Positions 9,835 to 15,350 of a stretch of 49,365 nucleotides of DNA are shown here, piece by piece. The notes below the pieces were generated by a model. That model searched no databases, had not been told where the DNA came from, and saw nothing but the letters and a program-made list of their open reading frames with translations. The stretch comes from a virus, in IMG/VR virus record IMGVR_UViG_3300004369_000679, positions 1 through 49,365 of that record. One strand, 5' to 3'. Position numbers and translations under genes: made by a program. Numbering within the stretch: the first letter of the stretch is position 1; each line of letters opens with the position of its first letter.

Positions 9835-12483
9835 TTACTCGGAAGCCTTTATCTTTTGTGCAATTTTTCTAACTCTGTCATCTAGGCTTTTTGTATCTGT
9901 TCTCATGTTATCAAATCCACTAATTAAAACCTTTAACTGGTCTTTTAACACGTTTATTGATGAATCTTGGCTGGAAATCAGTTGTTGTTCATTGTAATAC
10001 TGGTTGCTGTCTGTAGAATATGTGTTATTGCTGATGTTTTGATTTGAACCTTCTAATTTGCTTGTAGCACCTTTCATTGCAGAGTTCATAGCCATTGTGG
10101 CTTTTGCTAATTCCATGATCTTGTTAGGGTCACTTCTTTCAGACATATTAATAACATTTTGTATTGGGGAATCTAGTCCTAGTAAATTTCCAAATCCTGC
10201 TCTCAAGGAATCTATAATACCTGGTGTCATTTCTGTAGCAAAAACACCCAGTGATGTGCCTAGTTCGTCTATGCCCATTGCCAACCCTGACATTTGCTCA
10301 TAACTGATACCAGCACCTGCAAGATCTTTAACTGCGGCTGTTACTGCCTGTGTTTTGGACTTCATTGCATCTGCTTCTGCATTTATTCTGGCAACCTTTC
10401 CGCCACTAAATGCTTCAACAACTTTTGCAATAGCATTTCCAACACCTTCTATGACTTTGGTAACACCCTCAAATACACTTTTAATTGCTTTTCCGATACT
10501 CTCAACTAAAGGTGCTAAAAATGACAATGCTTTAGCAAGTCCCATAATCGCCAGTGTAACCACTGCAACACCCAATGCAACCTGTGGTGTAGCAAATGCA
10601 CGGAATCCTGCCGCCATGCTCTTCATGGCTGGACCCATGGCTTTCATACCAGCCGCTATTCCGCCACCTGCGGCCGCACCTCCACCTCCTGTAGCCGCGG
10701 TTGCGGCCGTACCTGCAACTGTAGAAGTGCCACCTGCCAATGCATTAGTAACGACTTTAGATGCAAATGCCTTAGTAATACCGGCTAGAATACCTGTTGC
10801 GATGGCAGTAAAAGTCACGGCTCCAATGCCAAGCATAAGATATTTTCCAATAGTACCCCAAGGAATAAGGTCTCTTATAGCAACACCAAGTGAATCTCCC
10901 ACGTTGGACATTATTTCACCAAAAGACATTCCTTCTGTTGCTTCAACAAATGCTTCAAGATAACTGGAAGCATATACTATTGCACTATTAAATCTTCTAC
11001 CTACCTCTTGCCCAACTTCTTTAAAAACTTCTTTAACTGTTTTACCTTCTCTGCTGACTCCAAATAAGGTGGCAAACAACACGCTTAACAAGTTATTAAT
11101 CTGTTTGGTTAGATCTGACATGATATTAGTGACATCGCCCACAGCACTACCAAATCCATCCATGAACATATTGAAGAAACTACTAAATGTACCTTTTATT
11201 TTGTCAATCACAGTATTAAAAGCATTGAATCCTTTTTGCACGTTTTCTAATTCGTATCCAACCTTTTGTGCATTTTGAGTTGCCTGTTCAAATTGTTTAA
11301 TTGCTTTGGCCATTACCTGAGCATTCTGATCACCCGCCCTGGCTAATAGGAATACCCTTTGCTTTTCGTATTCTGTTAAGTTACCCAACTCATTCACAAA
11401 GGCCATTGTTGCAGTCATGCCATTTAATGACCCATCTTCAAATCCGCTTATAACGTCCTGCATGGCTCCACTAAGTTGTGGCAATACTGTAATAAATCCA
11501 AAGGCGGCATCACTGAATCCGATTGCTCCCATTGATGCGGCTTCCAGAATTGCCGCTGACAATTCGCCACCTGCATCTCCACCCATTGCTCTCATACCAG
11601 AAAGGAAACTTTGTATTTCTGGTAATACTCTGGAATTCATGGAATCACTAAATCTCAATGTAGATGCCATAAACATCTGATTGTTACCCAGTACTGATTC
11701 CACAAACTCTCTTTGCACCGTTGTGCTGATACCAAGAGCCTTGGAATAGGCCAGTTGTTGTCTAGACAGGTTACCTATGTCTGAAGCCATTTGTCTTCTC
11801 TGATTAATATCTAGAGCACCTATGTTTAATAATTGTGTTCTTAAAGCAAGTTCATCTCCAAACATGCCTATTGTATCTTGCAAACTCATACCTAAATCTA
11901 TACCATTATTTGTTAGTTGCAAAAATGCATCAACTAGACCTGGTGTGGCATTTTGCCCTAAAACTCTGACAGCCTGTGCATTCTCCAACATAAATCTGGA
12001 TGCCTTCTCTGTACTCATACCCAGTTCATTAAAGGCGGCTACGTTCATTGCAGTACTGCCTTCTAATGCTAAACCAGATTGGCTAAGAGAGTTAAATGTG
12101 TTTCCTAATTGATCAAATTTTGTAGTAATAAGTGTAGTTGCTGTACCCAGAGCAACCAGAGAAAGTCCCACAATTTTATCAATAGCACTACCAAATAATC
12201 CGCCGGCCTTTGCCATCACAGTTTGATAGTTTAGGCTAGACTGTGAAATATCGTCTAAAACGTCTGTAACGTCTTCTAGTTCTTCTTTGAATTCATCAAA
12301 AGTTTCATCTAGTTCGGGTATTCTGACATCAGTCAGTTTATTGAGTGCTTTGGTTAGACTTTCTGTGCTTTTTTCTGTTTTACCAATTAAGGCCTCTACC
12401 AATCTGTTCAGAGTGGCTTCTGTTGCCCATTGGGGCAGGGTTTGGCTATTGCCACCGCCATCTGTAAAATTAATATCTGCCAT
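9835..12483 (-). CDS. Probable tail tape measure protein (gp29-like role)
   Basis: Sets tail tube length and occupies the tube lumen. The 882-residue product has an N-terminal helical, charged part (residues 20-85), a long Ala/Gly/Met-rich helical body, a Gly/Ala-rich patch near 590-615, and two strongly hydrophobic stretches around residues 545-575 and 630-665. This is the usual architecture of tape measure proteins, whose hydrophobic parts enter the host membrane. It is longer than T4 gp29 (590 residues), consistent with a longer tail or extra domains. No enzymatic motif is seen. It has its own late promoter and AGGAAAAC ribosome site, and is divergent from gp26. The call rests on composition and context, not on clear similarity to gp29. 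Confidence 0.6.
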   Translation of the reverse strand: MADINFTDGGGNSQTLPQWATEATLNRLVEALIGKTEKSTESLTKALNKLTDVRIPELDETFDEFKEELEDVTDVLDDISQSSLNYQTVMAKAGGLFGSAIDKIVGLSLVALGTATTLITTKFDQLGNTFNSLSQSGLALEGSTAMNVAAFNELGMSTEKASRFMLENAQAVRVLGQNATPGLVDAFLQLTNNGIDLGMSLQDTIGMFGDELALRTQLLNIGALDINQRRQMASDIGNLSRQQLAYSKALGISTTVQREFVESVLGNNQMFMASTLRFSDSMNSRVLPEIQSFLSGMRAMGGDAGGELSAAILEAASMGAIGFSDAAFGFITVLPQLSGAMQDVISGFEDGSLNGMTATMAFVNELGNLTEYEKQRVFLLARAGDQNAQVMAKAIKQFEQATQNAQKVGYELENVQKGFNAFNTVIDKIKGTFSSFFNMFMDGFGSAVGDVTNIMSDLTKQINNLLSVLFATLFGVSREGKTVKEVFKEVGQEVGRRFNSAIVYASSYLEAFVEATEGMSFGEIMSNVGDSLGVAIRDLIPWGTIGKYLMLGIGAVTFTAIATGILAGITKAFASKVVTNALAGGTSTVAGTAATAATGGGGAAAGGGIAAGMKAMGPAMKSMAAGFRAFATPQVALGVAVVTLAIMGLAKALSFLAPLVESIGKAIKSVFEGVTKVIEGVGNAIAKVVEAFSGGKVARINAEADAMKSKTQAVTAAVKDLAGAGISYEQMSGLAMGIDELGTSLGVFATEMTPGIIDSLRAGFGNLLGLDSPIQNVINMSERSDPNKIMELAKATMAMNSAMKGATSKLEGSNQNISNNTYSTDSNQYYNEQQLISSQDSSINVLKDQLKVLISGFDNMRTDTKSLDDRVRKIAQKIKASE

Positions 12484-12519
12484 TAGATCAGTTTTCCTAT
12501 AAACACTAGTTTTAATGGT

Positions 12520-12527
12520 GATAAATA
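12520..12527 (+). promoter_or_regulatory. Late promoter motif GATAAATA for gp26
   Basis: GATAAATA on the plus strand, 62 nt upstream of the gp26 start. It lies back to back with the minus-strand copy at 12556-12563 in a 106-nt divergent intergenic region. Confidence 0.55.
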
Positions 12528-12555
12528 CTCAGGTATAGAGATAGTATCACTTGTA

Positions 12556-12563
12556 TATTTATC
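12556..12563 (-). promoter_or_regulatory. Late promoter motif GATAAATA for the tape measure gene
   Basis: GATAAATA on the minus strand, 72 nt upstream of the start at 12483. The two divergent copies overlap in their promoter zones, so the two transcripts would start within each other's upstream regions. Confidence 0.55.
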
Positions 12564-12589
12564 CTATTTATAAACAGGAGTTTTAATAG

Positions 12590-13441
12590 ATGTCAAATAC
12601 ACCAAACCCATTACGCGAATATTTTAGATCGCCCAAATTATATGTAAAATTGCCCACAGGCGGTAAATTTTACACAAAAGACATAGTGGAGTATCCAGAA
12701 AGTGGCGAACTTCCTGTTTTTCCCATGACTGCAAAAGACGAAGTTATGATGAAAAATCCAGATGCACTTTTAAACGGAGAAGCAATTACACAATTAATTA
12801 CCAGTTGCGTACCTAATGTAAAACAACCCAGAGAAATGATCACAAACGACGTTGATGTATTGCTGGTTGCAATTCAGGGTGCTACAAACGGTGACGATAT
12901 GGAAGTTTCAGCAACCTGTCCAGAGTGTCAGGAGACAGTTACAGGTGTAGCAAGTGTGGAAGGAGCATTAGAGACTATGGATGAACTAGATGAAATTTAT
13001 AGTGTTCCAACACCACAAGGTTTAACTATCGAATTAAAACCTTTTAAATACGCAAACACAATCAAGGCAGGTATAGCCAGTTTCCAGACAACCAGGAGCC
13101 TTCAAACATTGGCTGAAATGGAAAATGATATGGACAAACTGAAAGTTTTTAACCAAAATTTTAGAAAAATGGCTGACATGAATTATCAACTTATTTTAGA
13201 TGCCATACATTCTATTAAAATAGAAAAAGACTCAGAAAAACTTGTAATTACTGACCGAGACCACATTAGAGAATTTTTAGATAATTGTGAGGCAGGAATT
13301 GGTAAAGCAGTAGATCAATCAGTAGGCAAACTTAATCAAATTGGTATTAACAAAGATATGCAATTTGAATGTGAAAAGTGTGAAAAAATATTTACAGCAC
13401 CCATAGGATTTGACCCTGTAAATTTTTTCATGGCTTCCTAG
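12590..13441 (+). CDS. gp26: Baseplate hub / tail assembly protein gp26 with zinc ribbon
   Basis: The 283-residue product begins MSNTPNPLREYFRSPKLYVK and contains LPVFPMTAKDEV, the T4-like gp26 family pattern. Two CxxC pairs (Cys110/113 and Cys261/264) make a likely zinc ribbon. T4 gp26 is smaller (208 residues) and takes part in baseplate hub assembly. An AGGAG ribosome site precedes the ATG. The last codons contain the slippery heptamer A AAT TTT (13420-13426), followed by a stem-loop, so a fraction of ribosomes may shift to -1 and make a 357-residue extended form (see the feature at 13426). A hub/chaperone role is inferred from the family and from the divergent tape measure gene. Confidence 0.8.
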   Translation: MSNTPNPLREYFRSPKLYVKLPTGGKFYTKDIVEYPESGELPVFPMTAKDEVMMKNPDALLNGEAITQLITSCVPNVKQPREMITNDVDVLLVAIQGATNGDDMEVSATCPECQETVTGVASVEGALETMDELDEIYSVPTPQGLTIELKPFKYANTIKAGIASFQTTRSLQTLAEMENDMDKLKVFNQNFRKMADMNYQLILDAIHSIKIEKDSEKLVITDRDHIREFLDNCEAGIGKAVDQSVGKLNQIGINKDMQFECEKCEKIFTAPIGFDPVNFFMAS

Positions 13442-13483
13442 CTCGAGCCGAACCTGAAGAAATTGTCAGTTACCTAGAGAAGC
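13420..13483 (+). promoter_or_regulatory. Candidate -1 programmed ribosomal frameshift signal
   Basis: Slippery heptamer A AAT TTT (13420-13426, X XXY YYZ in the gp26 frame), a 6-nt spacer, then a stem formed by 13433-13441 and 13474-13483 (nine base pairs, one bulged A at 13478, 32-nt loop). The gp26 stop TAG is at 13439-13441, inside the stem. After slippage the frame stays open to 13662. Heptamer type, spacing and stem match the known requirements for -1 frameshifting. Confidence 0.7.
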
Positions 13484-13662
13484 TCAAAAAAGATTCCACG
13501 GCCATAACAACCAATATAATGGAAATGGTGATTTATTCTGAAGGTAAAATAAGTTATTCAGAAGCATGGACCCTAAGTTATGAAGAAAGAGTTCTCTTTA
13601 TGAAGACATTGAATAATTTTATCAAGAAGAAAAATGGACAACAAGGTACTGAAGAATTATAA
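13426..13662 (+). CDS. Frameshift-dependent C-terminal extension of gp26 (gp51 position)
   Basis: An open -1 frame of 78 codons that fills the gap between gp26 and the next gene. It has no ATG until its 40th codon and no ribosome site there. Its upstream limit is a TGA at 13411, only 9 nt before the slippery heptamer, so it can be reached in full only from gp26. The peptide is acidic and helical, beginning FHGFLARAEPEEIVSYLEKL and including YSEAWTLSYEERVLFMKTLN. It ends in TAATG shared with the nuclease gene. T4 encodes gp51, a baseplate assembly factor, near gp26; similarity to gp51 is not established here. A short internally started form is the alternative. Confidence 0.65.
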   Translation, partial: FHGFLARAEPEEIVSYLEKLKKDSTAITTNIMEMVIYSEGKISYSEAWTLSYEERVLFMKTLNNFIKKKNGQQGTEEL

Positions 13663-14084
13663 TGAGTTGGTATTATAAAGACAAACTTATAACAGAACTT
13701 CCAGAAGACTGCGAAGCATTTGTATATCTAATAACAAATTTAACCAACGATAAAAAATATATTGGCAAAAAATTAGCAAAATTTAAAACTACTAAACCTC
13801 CATTAAAAGGCAAAAAGAACAAAAGACGTGGTTACAAAGAAAGTGATTGGCGTACTTATTGGGGTAGTAGTGATCATTTAAATGCAGATGTTTTAGAACT
13901 AGGAGAAGATAAATTTCGTAGAGAAATATTATATTATTGTCCTAGCCGAGGAGTTGCAAGTTACTTAGAGGCTAGAGAGCAATTTGAAAGGCGAGTGCTT
14001 GAAACTGACGACTATTATAACGGAATCATCAACGTCAGAGTAGGTGGTTCAAAAATCCTTAAGGAAGCCTTAAAGACCTTATAA
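13662..14084 (+). CDS. GIY-YIG family endonuclease-like protein
   Basis: A 140-residue protein with a GIY-YIG core: FVY at residues 20-22 and YIG at 33-35, separated by the family's usual ten residues, followed by a basic patch (KGKKNKRRGYK), an Arg in SDWRTYWGSS, a Glu-rich helix (YLEAREQFERRVLE) and a final Asn in YYNGIINVR. The first motif is diverged (FVY instead of GIY). Such proteins, annotated as Seg-like homing endonucleases, recur near baseplate genes of marine T4-like phages. The ATG overlaps the previous stop (TAATG). It is followed by a 474-nt GC-rich non-coding stretch. It may be a homing nuclease or a domesticated nuclease; I cannot decide. Confidence 0.7.
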   Translation: MSWYYKDKLITELPEDCEAFVYLITNLTNDKKYIGKKLAKFKTTKPPLKGKKNKRRGYKESDWRTYWGSSDHLNADVLELGEDKFRREILYYCPSRGVASYLEAREQFERRVLETDDYYNGIINVRVGGSKILKEALKTL

Positions 14085-14536
14085 GTAGGTGTGTTAAAAC
14101 GCAAGTTAGAACACAATTCACATCAAGGCACACACATAGGACCATACACCACCCTACCGAGGCGAATAATATCGGGCTCTTCGACAATCCGGCAATGGAA
14201 ACACCCGGTGCGAGATTTAGAGATGTATGGCGTTTAAAGAGATACAGAAACACGACAAACAGTATTAAAAGATACAGGCTCTGAGAAAGCAACCTGTTAG
14301 CCACAAAACTAAACTCATCCAGGTAATGTGGTTCCCGTGAGATACCAGTGACGGTAGTGTAAGGGGGGATAAGGCTCACCGCCTCCTAGTAGCACCCGAG
14401 ATTGAGATGATGAAGCCATCACATGATGACTCATTTTTCGCCTGTATAGGTGAATTATGACTCCTCCATACATGATAACGAAAACACTTTAAGTCGAGTA
14501 AATGAGTTGAGTGAAACGAAACGAATTGACGAAGAC
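14085..14536 (+). ncRNA. Candidate structured non-coding RNA region, strand uncertain
   Basis: No supported gene lies in this stretch. Bases 14101-14400 are about 47% GC by my count (58% in 14341-14400), against roughly 30% in neighbouring coding lines. Several helices can be drawn: 14090-14095 with 14110-14115 (TGTGTT/AACACA), ACAGG/CCTGT near 14274-14297, TGATG/CATCA near 14407-14420 enclosed by TGAG/CTCA and followed by five T, CGCCT/AGGTG near 14439-14452, and TTTAAGTC (14488-14495) with GACTTAAA (14534-14541). A CGGT...GGGGGG...ACCG...CCTCC order near 14350-14385 could form a pseudoknot. I could not match it to tRNA, tmRNA, RNase P or a group I intron core. Plus-strand transcription from the gp26 operon seems likelier because the minus operon has its own terminator-like hairpin. 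Confidence 0.35.
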
Positions 14537-14537
14537 T

Positions 14538-14556
14538 TAAAAGGTCCGAAGGACCT
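14538..14556 (-). terminator. Possible terminator after the gp46 operon
   Basis: Six-base-pair hairpin AGGTCC/GGACCT (14542-14556) with a 3-nt loop, two nt beyond the stop at 14559. On the minus strand it is followed by only three to four T, so termination may be weak. It also sits at the end of the RNA candidate. Confidence 0.45.
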
Positions 14557-14558
14557 AA

Positions 14559-15350
14559 TTAATATGCTTTTATGGAATGTATAAAGCGATATTTCTTTAT
14601 TTCCGATAAATCTGGCTCGTGTGTTAATTTGCCTAACGGAATCTTTCCGATTGCCAGTCTTTTATCGCCTATTGTATAAGGCAGTTTGTTATGTATTTTT
14701 GCCAGGAATCTGTTTAAGTTTAACAGATACCTTTTACCTGCAAATACATCATCATCTAACCAACCAGCCAAATCATTTTTTAATATACTAGTAGGTTGTA
14801 TTTGGTCTTCAGGAATGTCTATATCGCCATCATTAAAGATAGCCATAATGTGTTTGCCAACATGTGGGTAATTCATATATAACCAGTTCTTTTTTAAATC
14901 AGGTGTGAATAAATCATAGTCCGTATCTTGCAGTGGCTCTCCAGGGTCATTCGTACATGTTATAAATCTTTTTTTGGCATGTCTGGAAATGTCTTCTAAG
15001 TGGTGAATCGTATAATTCAACTTAACTAAAAGATCGTTAAGTTTTTGAGACGGGTATTTTTCTTTTTGTAATTCGTAATGTGTAGAAGCAAAAATGTCGT
15101 GCAGGTGATTTAAGTCCATGGACTCTATAACAATTTCAGGCCTTAATAATTTTAATTGCTTAACACAATCCTTTAAAGAGTGTTCTACTTCCTGTTTGGT
15201 TTCACCAAAACCATAAAATCTGTCTGGACTAATTACAGGGTAATCTTGTTCTTTAAATCTTTCCCATATTCTGGTAGCAACTCTGTTATCGAAAAATTTG
15301 TAAGTTAAGGTGTATTCTGCATTTTCACCTAAATTAATATCAACCAACAT
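14559..15350 (-). CDS. Hypothetical protein, last gene of the gp55-47-46 operon
   Basis: A 263-residue soluble protein I do not recognise. It begins MLVDINLGENAEYTLTYKFF. It has a helical middle (DLLVKLNYTIHHLEDISRHA), an Asp-rich segment (DYDLFTPDLKKNW and IFNDGDIDIPEDQ) and a basic C-terminal third. There are no membrane segments, signal peptide or obvious catalytic motif. It overlaps the end of gp46 by 11 nt and so is translationally coupled to it. A link to DNA replication or recombination is suggested only by the operon. Confidence 0.75.
   Translation of the reverse strand: MLVDINLGENAEYTLTYKFFDNRVATRIWERFKEQDYPVISPDRFYGFGETKQEVEHSLKDCVKQLKLLRPEIVIESMDLNHLHDIFASTHYELQKEKYPSQKLNDLLVKLNYTIHHLEDISRHAKKRFITCTNDPGEPLQDTDYDLFTPDLKKNWLYMNYPHVGKHIMAIFNDGDIDIPEDQIQPTSILKNDLAGWLDDDVFAGKRYLLNLNRFLAKIHNKLPYTIGDKRLAIGKIPLGKLTHEPDLSEIKKYRFIHSIKAY

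Follow-up and report, generated by a model that had tools for sequence, protein, structure and literature searches.

RESULTS

Genes and base composition around a gene-free stretch

The window, by which we mean the whole stretch of DNA analysed, comprises the 49,365 bases of IMG/VR virus record IMGVR_UViG_3300004369_000679, carries T4-like genes, and is very likely a fragment. Its proteins include a gp26-like baseplate protein (PF12322), a gp46-like protein of 588 aa (phrog_77), a gp47-like protein of 338 aa (phrog_100), and a late sigma factor (phrog_12791). The closest gp46 matches among 50,697 phage records were large phages, including PA5oct-like Pseudomonas phages at 50% identity, with Sinorhizobium phage Phosso (469 kb) and Agrobacterium phage Atu_ph07 (490 kb) among the further top matches. 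On the + strand, gp26 is followed by a SegE-like GIY-YIG gene (PF19835) and then by a stretch free of genes, which spans from the GIY-YIG stop (14084) to the end (14559) of an opposing gene. The latter gene (14559-15350, - strand; 263 aa) matched nothing in Pfam or PHROG within the limits applied; lying between gp46 and the stretch, it is present or absent depending on the relative and occurs in two copies in L005. The GIY-YIG protein has 140 aa, of which the GIY-YIG domain (residues 3-123 in Pfam) takes up nearly the whole; an AlphaFold model run without an alignment was too uncertain to be used (pLDDT 37.8). The same protein family is called "NAD synthetase" in PHROGs (phrog_447) and in many listed phage records, which looks like an annotation error that spread.

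At the end of the gp26-like open reading frame (13418-13441; AAT TTT TTC ATG GCT TCC TAG), slippage by -1 at the T-run would lead into a conserved frame of about 75 aa (FFHGFLARAEPEE...) that continues to 13662 on the + strand. The same pair of frames was seen in 6/6 relatives printed and suggests programmed -1 frameshifting; the part downstream of the slip may correspond to gp51.

Our recomputation of the base composition gave a GC content of 0.439 over 14085-14558, compared with 0.350 for the window, rising to 0.473 over 14101-14400 and 0.583 over 14341-14400, in agreement with the rise (about 47% and, in the last 60 nt, 58%) that an earlier note on the letters of this DNA had pointed out. 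Of 982 segments of 300 nt, taken every 50 nt, only 7 reached the GC content of 14101-14400. That note had also found no supported gene in these 474 nt, which was borne out in the homologues described below. The longest + strand open reading frame is 48 aa, and the - strand holds a mechanical 106-aa frame with a GTG start (14059-14379). In 41 representative homologues, compared over 370 nt, the longest run without a stop codon on the - strand was 41-116 codons, with a median of 65 and a value of 88 in the window; on the + strand it did not exceed 99 codons, the median being 49 and the window's value 54. Given this variation, neither strand keeps an open frame or looks coding, and indels among the homologues do not come in multiples of three. 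Folding of the single sequence was not significant on the + strand (z -1.04; 16/100 shuffles equally good) or the - strand (z -1.85; 4/100), and single-sequence folding was dropped as proof of structure, the evidence for which comes from homologues.

Homologues and spread of the RNA

A search of IMG/VR with the GIY-YIG protein yielded 590 confirmed loci, the best 80 of which were used. The stretch could be aligned over at least 144 nt in 21 of these 80 loci and over only 33-74 nt in six more (blastn), and several further loci held a diverged, similar-looking stretch at the same place. Of 55 other GIY-YIG loci, 10 matched a profile of the RNA core with E at or below 1.1e-14; the remaining 45 end early, are more diverged, or are without the RNA, with L026 and L033 running into another gene. 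Scans of IMG/VR by two different motifs taken from the RNA only returned at least 119 and at least 120 stretches. The contigs bearing the RNA were as long as 250,519 (L186) and 267,783 bases (L046), and its carriers are uncultured phages, in part jumbo-sized, for which the relatives point to an aquatic setting. Seven versions of the RNA had no match in the 50,697 phage records (blastn). In the genome collection, the loop motif described below gave 20 matches, about 15 being expected by estimate at equal base frequencies, and none lay near any of six window proteins.

A structured RNA supported by compensatory changes

Our comparative analysis was based on two alignments: A3, with the window and 28 relatives (29 sequences), and A4, with 25 diverged sequences. 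Of 32 diverged representatives, 25 entered A4, L271 and L303 joined A3, and L260, L270, L279, L304, and L313 were omitted; the first covariation scan was made without the three rows L011, L029, and L053. The features on the + strand are as follows, in window coordinates.

13662-14084, + strand: SegE-like GIY-YIG gene (PF19835; Pfam E 1.5e-33), the usual but dispensable neighbour upstream of the RNA
14136-14479, + strand: structured RNA proper, conserved and covarying; extent judged from conservation
14142-14148 / 14224-14230, + strand: P1, closing the 5' domain; both-side changes in 4/7 pairs, 97.9% of cells paired
14157-14160 / 14172-14175, + strand: P2; both-side changes in 4/4 pairs
14180-14183 / 14211-14214, + strand: P3, not proven; one-sided variation only
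14189-14192 / 14205-14208, + strand: P4; both-side changes in 3/4 pairs
14241-14245 / 14262-14266, + strand: P5; 100% paired, both-side changes in 2/5 pairs
14274-14278 / 14293-14297, + strand: P6; both-side changes in 3/5 pairs, same hairpin in the diverged set
14298-14310 / 14322-14334, + strand: P7, long hairpin; both-side changes in 11/14 pairs
14337-14341 / 14375-14379 interlocked with 14363-14368 / 14382-14387, + strand: H-type pseudoknot; 100% paired, compensatory changes
14357-14360 / 14392-14395, + strand: P9 (helix 9); invariant in 29 sequences, so that covariation neither supports nor refutes it
14417-14430, + strand: twin unit 1, heptamer 14421-14427, the same as that of unit 2 in relatives
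14437-14454, + strand: hairpin between the twin units; covaries in A3 and in A4
14467-14479, + strand: twin unit 2, heptamer 14470-14476, the same as that of unit 1 in relatives
14488-14495 / 14534-14541 and 14542-14547 / 14551-14556, + strand: two 3' hairpins; compensatory pairs in 13-18 sequences

In A3, an 11-helix structure with a pseudoknot left 97.4% of 1883 cells paired, compared with 88.0% in shuffles and 34-42% in slid versions, a percentage that is partly by construction, as the structures were derived from the same alignments. Changes on both sides of a pair affected 36 of 66 pairs and 186 cells (19.6 and 47.0 in shuffles), and none of 500 shuffles reached either value; relatedness inflates such shuffle contrasts, yet the slid versions keep the relatedness and score far lower. 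A4 retained P6, both pseudoknot helices (93.6% and 86.4% of cells paired), and the hairpin between the twin units, and added one further helix; over all five, 90.5% of 682 cells were paired and 20/28 pairs had both-side changes (14.6 in shuffles). Across both groups (39 sequences), the first pseudoknot helix had 95.9% of 195 cells paired and 58 cells with both-side changes, compared with 15.9 in shuffles; in 4 of its pairs both sides had changed and 12 further pair types occurred, values not above those of shuffles, which reached them in 134/500 and 85/500 cases, as expected for five pairs. P6 encloses a conserved purine-rich loop with the motif GGCNNUGRGAAAAAGCAACC, two A of which are absent in the window.

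The earlier note had proposed a structured RNA in the GC-rich stretch, including an 8-bp closing stem at 14488-14541 and a possible pseudoknot near 14350-14385. The stem was recovered at 14488-14495 / 14534-14541 with its letters checked, and the pseudoknot exists, formed by 14337-14341 / 14375-14379 and 14363-14368 / 14382-14387. The note had called for homologues to be collected and searched for compensatory changes, and had held that an absence of covariation, or conservation along a reading frame, would speak against such an RNA; the IMG/VR homologues revealed neither, and compensatory change was found in A3 (36/66 pairs, 0/500 shuffles), in A4, and in one pseudoknot helix across both. Sequence comparison thus confirms that the gene-free stretch encodes a structured RNA on the + strand. 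Judged from conservation, it would measure about 345 nt without the 3' hairpins (14488-14556), which may be part of the RNA or partly a feature of the end of the opposing operon. The last hairpin was rejected as a Rho-independent terminator, as a T-rich tract follows it on the + strand in 0/41 homologues and an A-rich tract (a U-run on the - strand) precedes it in 5/41.

No known class was recognised in the earlier note, and the Rfam covariance search likewise gave no match at the RNA core. At the gathering threshold, no Rfam 15 family matched the window. Relaxing the limit to E 5 around the stretch gave one chance-level match (E 2.7; 13942-14097, - strand), lying mostly in the GIY-YIG gene, and five loci holding diverged versions had no match up to E 1. 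A group I intron was rejected for lack of an Rfam group I match in the window, the stretch, or these five loci (E up to 1). ARAGORN detected no tmRNA or tRNA, and Rfam no tmRNA. Membership in GOLLD or ROOL, both of which are presumably included in Rfam, was rejected because no covariance model matched in the window or the five diverged loci; HEARO, if included in Rfam, had no match either.

Twin units that change in concert

Two segments flanking the conserved 3' hairpin carry the same heptamer within an RNA and different heptamers between phages; in the window, both read ACATGAT (14421-14427 and 14470-14476). Because A3 and A4 were picked from representatives with detectable twin units, they are no test of this rule, and an unselected test was made on 144 distinct RNAs. 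All but four of these (L269, L285, L299, and L304) allowed the hairpin to be placed, and 139/140 shared a run of at least 7 nt between the flanking zones, the single failure, L177, being a misplaced hairpin. This run was exactly 7 nt in 117 of the 139. Among random pairs of RNAs with different units, 442/2720 reached 7, as related RNAs share other letters. In the group of the window, every RNA printed shared a run of at least 7 between both zones, and altogether 19 heptamers occurred among 126 distinct RNAs with detected units.

The flanks of the two units differ in a steady manner. In the window's group, unit pairs were chosen by the G and A after the heptamer and also by GAT as its end, which in part predetermines the flank rows. 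The next two positions beyond the G/A played no part in the choice and were identical in 63/63 distinct unit pairs. Diverged-group pairs were chosen by at least three of four flank marks (G/A, CUC/UCU), and their flank rows are likewise partly predetermined. In the diverged scan, which includes window's-group loci and a few false pairs, units of the forms CUC-N7-G and UCU-N7-A were found in 36/77 loci, with G for the last A in 13 more. Similar flanks were also listed without flank-based choice of pairs. Most flank differences are transitions, tolerable to one partner via G-U pairing, and a few pairs in the diverged group break the wobble pattern, with transversions in 11% at -2 and -3 and 3% at +7. 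Unit 1 of the window's group carries one extra base before the heptamer, which would be a bulge. In the consensus ensemble, the units were unpaired more often than average (means of 0.79 and 0.74, compared with 0.62 for all columns). Inheritance alone would not be expected to hold the copies equal while 19 versions arose, and gene conversion would hardly keep steady flank differences between them. L306 has a longer sequence shared between its units (16/17 nt), with a G/C difference after the heptamer, and this outlier may show how units are renewed.

Search for a pairing partner

Pairing of the twin units with each other was rejected, as the registers differ between heptamer classes when examined by hand. 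No RNA column besides the units follows the heptamer fully, the next best being gap-rich or loop columns, and an internal third strand pairing with the units was found neither in RNA columns nor in the flanks. The unit complement has no constant place within the RNA or 700 nt around it; single complements occur in some loci, and for nearly palindromic heptamers such as TCATGAT the complement overlaps the unit itself. At orthologous gene starts, the unit complement was not above swapped heptamers (16 contigs, 40-260 kb); neither the heptamer nor its complement was enriched within 0.4-5 kb of the RNA, and heptamers were not clearly over-represented in 8 contigs with a known unit. No recurrent matching phage target exceeded the control: an excess of 45 target matches in the loci turned out to be the antisense strand of the RNA itself in all but one shown, and several of the 10 matches in long contigs, most of which are fragments that limit this search, were likewise antisense. 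A conserved bacterial target was also rejected: among 385 genomes from a single bacterial class, the 13-nt complement of the window's unit occurred once each in 6, compared with 1 for the backward control, and these scattered sites share no sequence. These results lead us to infer a partner that is external, or outside the sequences covered.

Locus arrangement and the GIY-YIG companion

The RNA lies where the 47-46 operon meets the gp26 operon. It follows 47-46 and faces gp26 in 54/79 loci with a long gp46, and the window's arrangement (25 rows) needs two changes on a quick gp46 tree. The order of GIY-YIG gene and RNA is constant in both arrangements, suggesting that the two were inverted together. 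Counting was restricted to loci that the RNA itself had retrieved and that extend at least 700 nt upstream of it; in these, the GIY-YIG gene lay upstream on the same strand in 107/107 for the first motif and in 62/73 for the second, where it was reversed in 4 (L264, L267, L310, and L314) and not found within 2.5 kb upstream in 7 (L252, L253, L284, L289, L304, L308, and L316). Pooled, these counts give 169/180 on the same strand, 4 reversed, and 7 not found, with search E limits of 1e-5 and 1e-3 and contigs that may recur between scans. A wider set of 174 testable loci gave 164, 4, and 6, respectively, and the RNA-first counts are preferred, as this set includes some of the 18/189 loci found via the GIY-YIG gene and repeats some contigs. 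An obligate partnership, in keeping with 123/123 loci at first, was broken by the second-motif scan. The seven loci without the gene have other genes upstream, and the RNA still faces gp26 in 6/6 with enough downstream sequence. Its presence in loci lacking the GIY-YIG gene means that the RNA has an independent function, and we regard it as a separate gene that the GIY-YIG gene often accompanies. Further open reading frames separate the two in L053 and L073.

Up to 3 kb upstream of the RNA, L252, L253, L304, and L308 carry clusters of other genes, transporter-like and oxygenase-like as judged by eye only, and L304 has a tandem pair of similar genes there; cargo genes may preferentially accumulate at the gp26/47-46 junction. 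The earlier note had not seen how widely the RNA is distributed, its concerted twin motifs, or its occurrence without the GIY-YIG gene.

DISCUSSION

Our analysis adds a class of large structured RNA, found in more than 100 contigs of uncultured phages, some above 250 kb, for which we know of few described non-coding RNAs. Its evolutionary signal is unusual, in that two places are kept identical rather than complementary while the sequence itself changes. The reading that we favour, to which we give about an even chance, is a trans-acting phage RNA or ribonucleoprotein with twin recognition segments for one external partner. Its fold consists of a 5' domain closed by P1, the P6 hairpin with its conserved purine-rich loop, the long P7 hairpin, the H-type pseudoknot, and, between the twins, the 3' hairpin; the RNA would act in trans, either as such or within a ribonucleoprotein. 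Both copies would base-pair with the same short site in the partner, for which a host RNA or DNA, or a phage site outside the sequences searched, is a candidate. The G or A after the heptamer and the C or U before it (in most of the diverged group) would be allowed by wobble pairing to one partner, and possible outcomes include silencing, sequestration, or the guiding of a protein. A bolder version, which we consider rather unlikely, is a dual-seed guide RNA within a ribonucleoprotein that carries the same reprogrammable 7-10 nt twice, binds one target cooperatively or two copies at once, often has the GIY-YIG protein as effector, and has both seeds re-written together to track a changing host or rival target.

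As for the source of the transcript, the T4 late-promoter consensus is TATAAATA, and no exact copy lies upstream of the RNA on the + strand, the single match in the window being at 12565-12572 on the - strand; sigma-70-like sites over 12300-15000 were at chance level (11 versus 9.0). In view of both results, read-through from the upstream operon is probably the simplest source of the RNA.

That the RNA is instead a cis-acting 3' element, stabilising or terminating the transcripts of both convergent operons, would suit its place between such operons in both orientations and the covarying hairpins at its 3' end. However, a pseudoknot and a nearly invariant loop are far more structure than termination needs, the last hairpin has no + strand T-run after it in 41/41 homologues, further open reading frames can intervene between the GIY-YIG gene and the RNA (L053 and L073), and the concerted units would be left unexplained; we find this reading doubtful. 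We hold it unlikely that the RNA is a dedicated guide or scaffold giving the small neighbouring GIY-YIG nuclease its target. The gene stands upstream on the same strand in 107/107 and 62/73 loci, keeps its order with the RNA when the unit is inverted between operons, and encodes a 140-aa protein that is nearly all GIY-YIG domain (residues 3-123). Against such a partnership, 7/73 loci lack the gene within 2.5 kb upstream and 4/73 have it reversed, and the gene in turn occurs without recognisable RNA, as a good match to the RNA model was found in only 10/55 further loci. T4-like phages have freestanding SegE-like GIY-YIG genes (PF19835), which belong to the same family and are known on their own; in four isolates, 0-148 nt separate the GIY-YIG gene from the next gene. 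The protein also stays 73-96% identical to that of the window (first scan) while the units change, although a guide would allow this.

Alternatively, the twin units might act as DNA, for instance in an origin or as a site-specific recombination pair: they would be binding or recombination sites that come in pairs and require the same core, and whose location inside a structured RNA is coincidental or has some linked cause. In recombination overlap regions, paired sites typically share an identical short core whose sequence is free, a pattern that the units resemble, and the cassette is found inverted. Recombinational inversion requires inverted sites, whereas the units have the same orientation, at fixed places in the RNA fold about 50 nt apart, which is close for deletion; no conserved inverted arms were seen by eye beside the heptamers, and we judge this reading quite unlikely. 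Very improbable, finally, is a remnant of a known class, be it a group I intron, tmRNA, a GOLLD/ROOL-like RNA, or another catalogued RNA. GIY-YIG genes often reside in group I introns, which lends the neighbouring gene some weight here, as does the two-piece tmRNA of a related marine phage (PMC9004378, in part); the searches with Rfam and, for tmRNA and tRNA, with ARAGORN gave no match. That phage also carries a glutamine riboswitch, and the part of its report covered describes nothing like the twin-unit RNA (PMC9004378).

Comparison with known systems places the RNA broadly among phage non-coding RNAs. GOLLD and ROOL are longer than the twin-unit RNA, and we know of no twin concerted heptamers in either. 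A likeness lies in being long, highly structured, non-coding, and found in phage or environmental DNA, a description drawn partly from general background and partly from portions of two reports (PMC12286853 and PMC2864571). Unlike them, the twin-unit RNA has no Rfam similarity, is tied to the gp26/gp46 junction, and has twin concerted heptamers. OMEGA systems (IscB/TnpB with wRNA, HEARO) pair a nuclease gene with an adjacent structured RNA whose short recognition sequence varies, and the adjoining nuclease gene and variable sequence recall this arrangement. In our loci, however, the nuclease is GIY-YIG rather than RuvC/HNH, its gene is missing or reversed in some loci, and the variable sequence occurs twice and inside the RNA. 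These features speak against an OMEGA-like RNA-guided nuclease, the neighbour belonging to PF19835 and not always accompanying the RNA (62/73 on the same strand, 4 reversed, 7 none). Some trans-acting bacterial sRNAs carry two copies of one antisense seed, and two mostly unpaired copies of one short sequence could similarly pair with one target; here, in contrast, the seed turns over between related phages with the copies staying identical, and the rest of the RNA is a large pseudoknotted fold. Since neither the fold nor the concerted units fit any family tested or known to us, we rate the RNA as new. Searches of open-licence PMC literature, by title and the start of the abstract, returned no description of it. 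Fremin and colleagues reportedly carried out a large computational survey of viral structured RNAs, and the family may be an unnamed entry in such surveys. The concerted heptamers point at a partner that can now be searched for. As a guide or seed RNA, the molecule would give phages a new means of recognising nucleic acids; if it is neither, the question becomes what else keeps two 7-mers identical.

Among isolated phages, model R1 of the RNA, which has only 5 base pairs and is therefore mainly a sequence profile, found nothing convincing in 8-16 kb stretches of PA5oct, Phosso, Atu_ph07, SCTP-2, and Melnitz, the best match (E 0.22) lying away from the expected place. Unannotated gaps at about the same junction occur in Phosso (L395:10411-11424; 1014 nt) and PA5oct (L394:10868-11530; 663 nt), with no match to the RNA model or Rfam and no twin heptamer by pattern. 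The PA5oct gap contains a hairpin followed by TTTATGAC, resembling the hairpin before unit 2, and both gaps may hold diverged or other RNAs.
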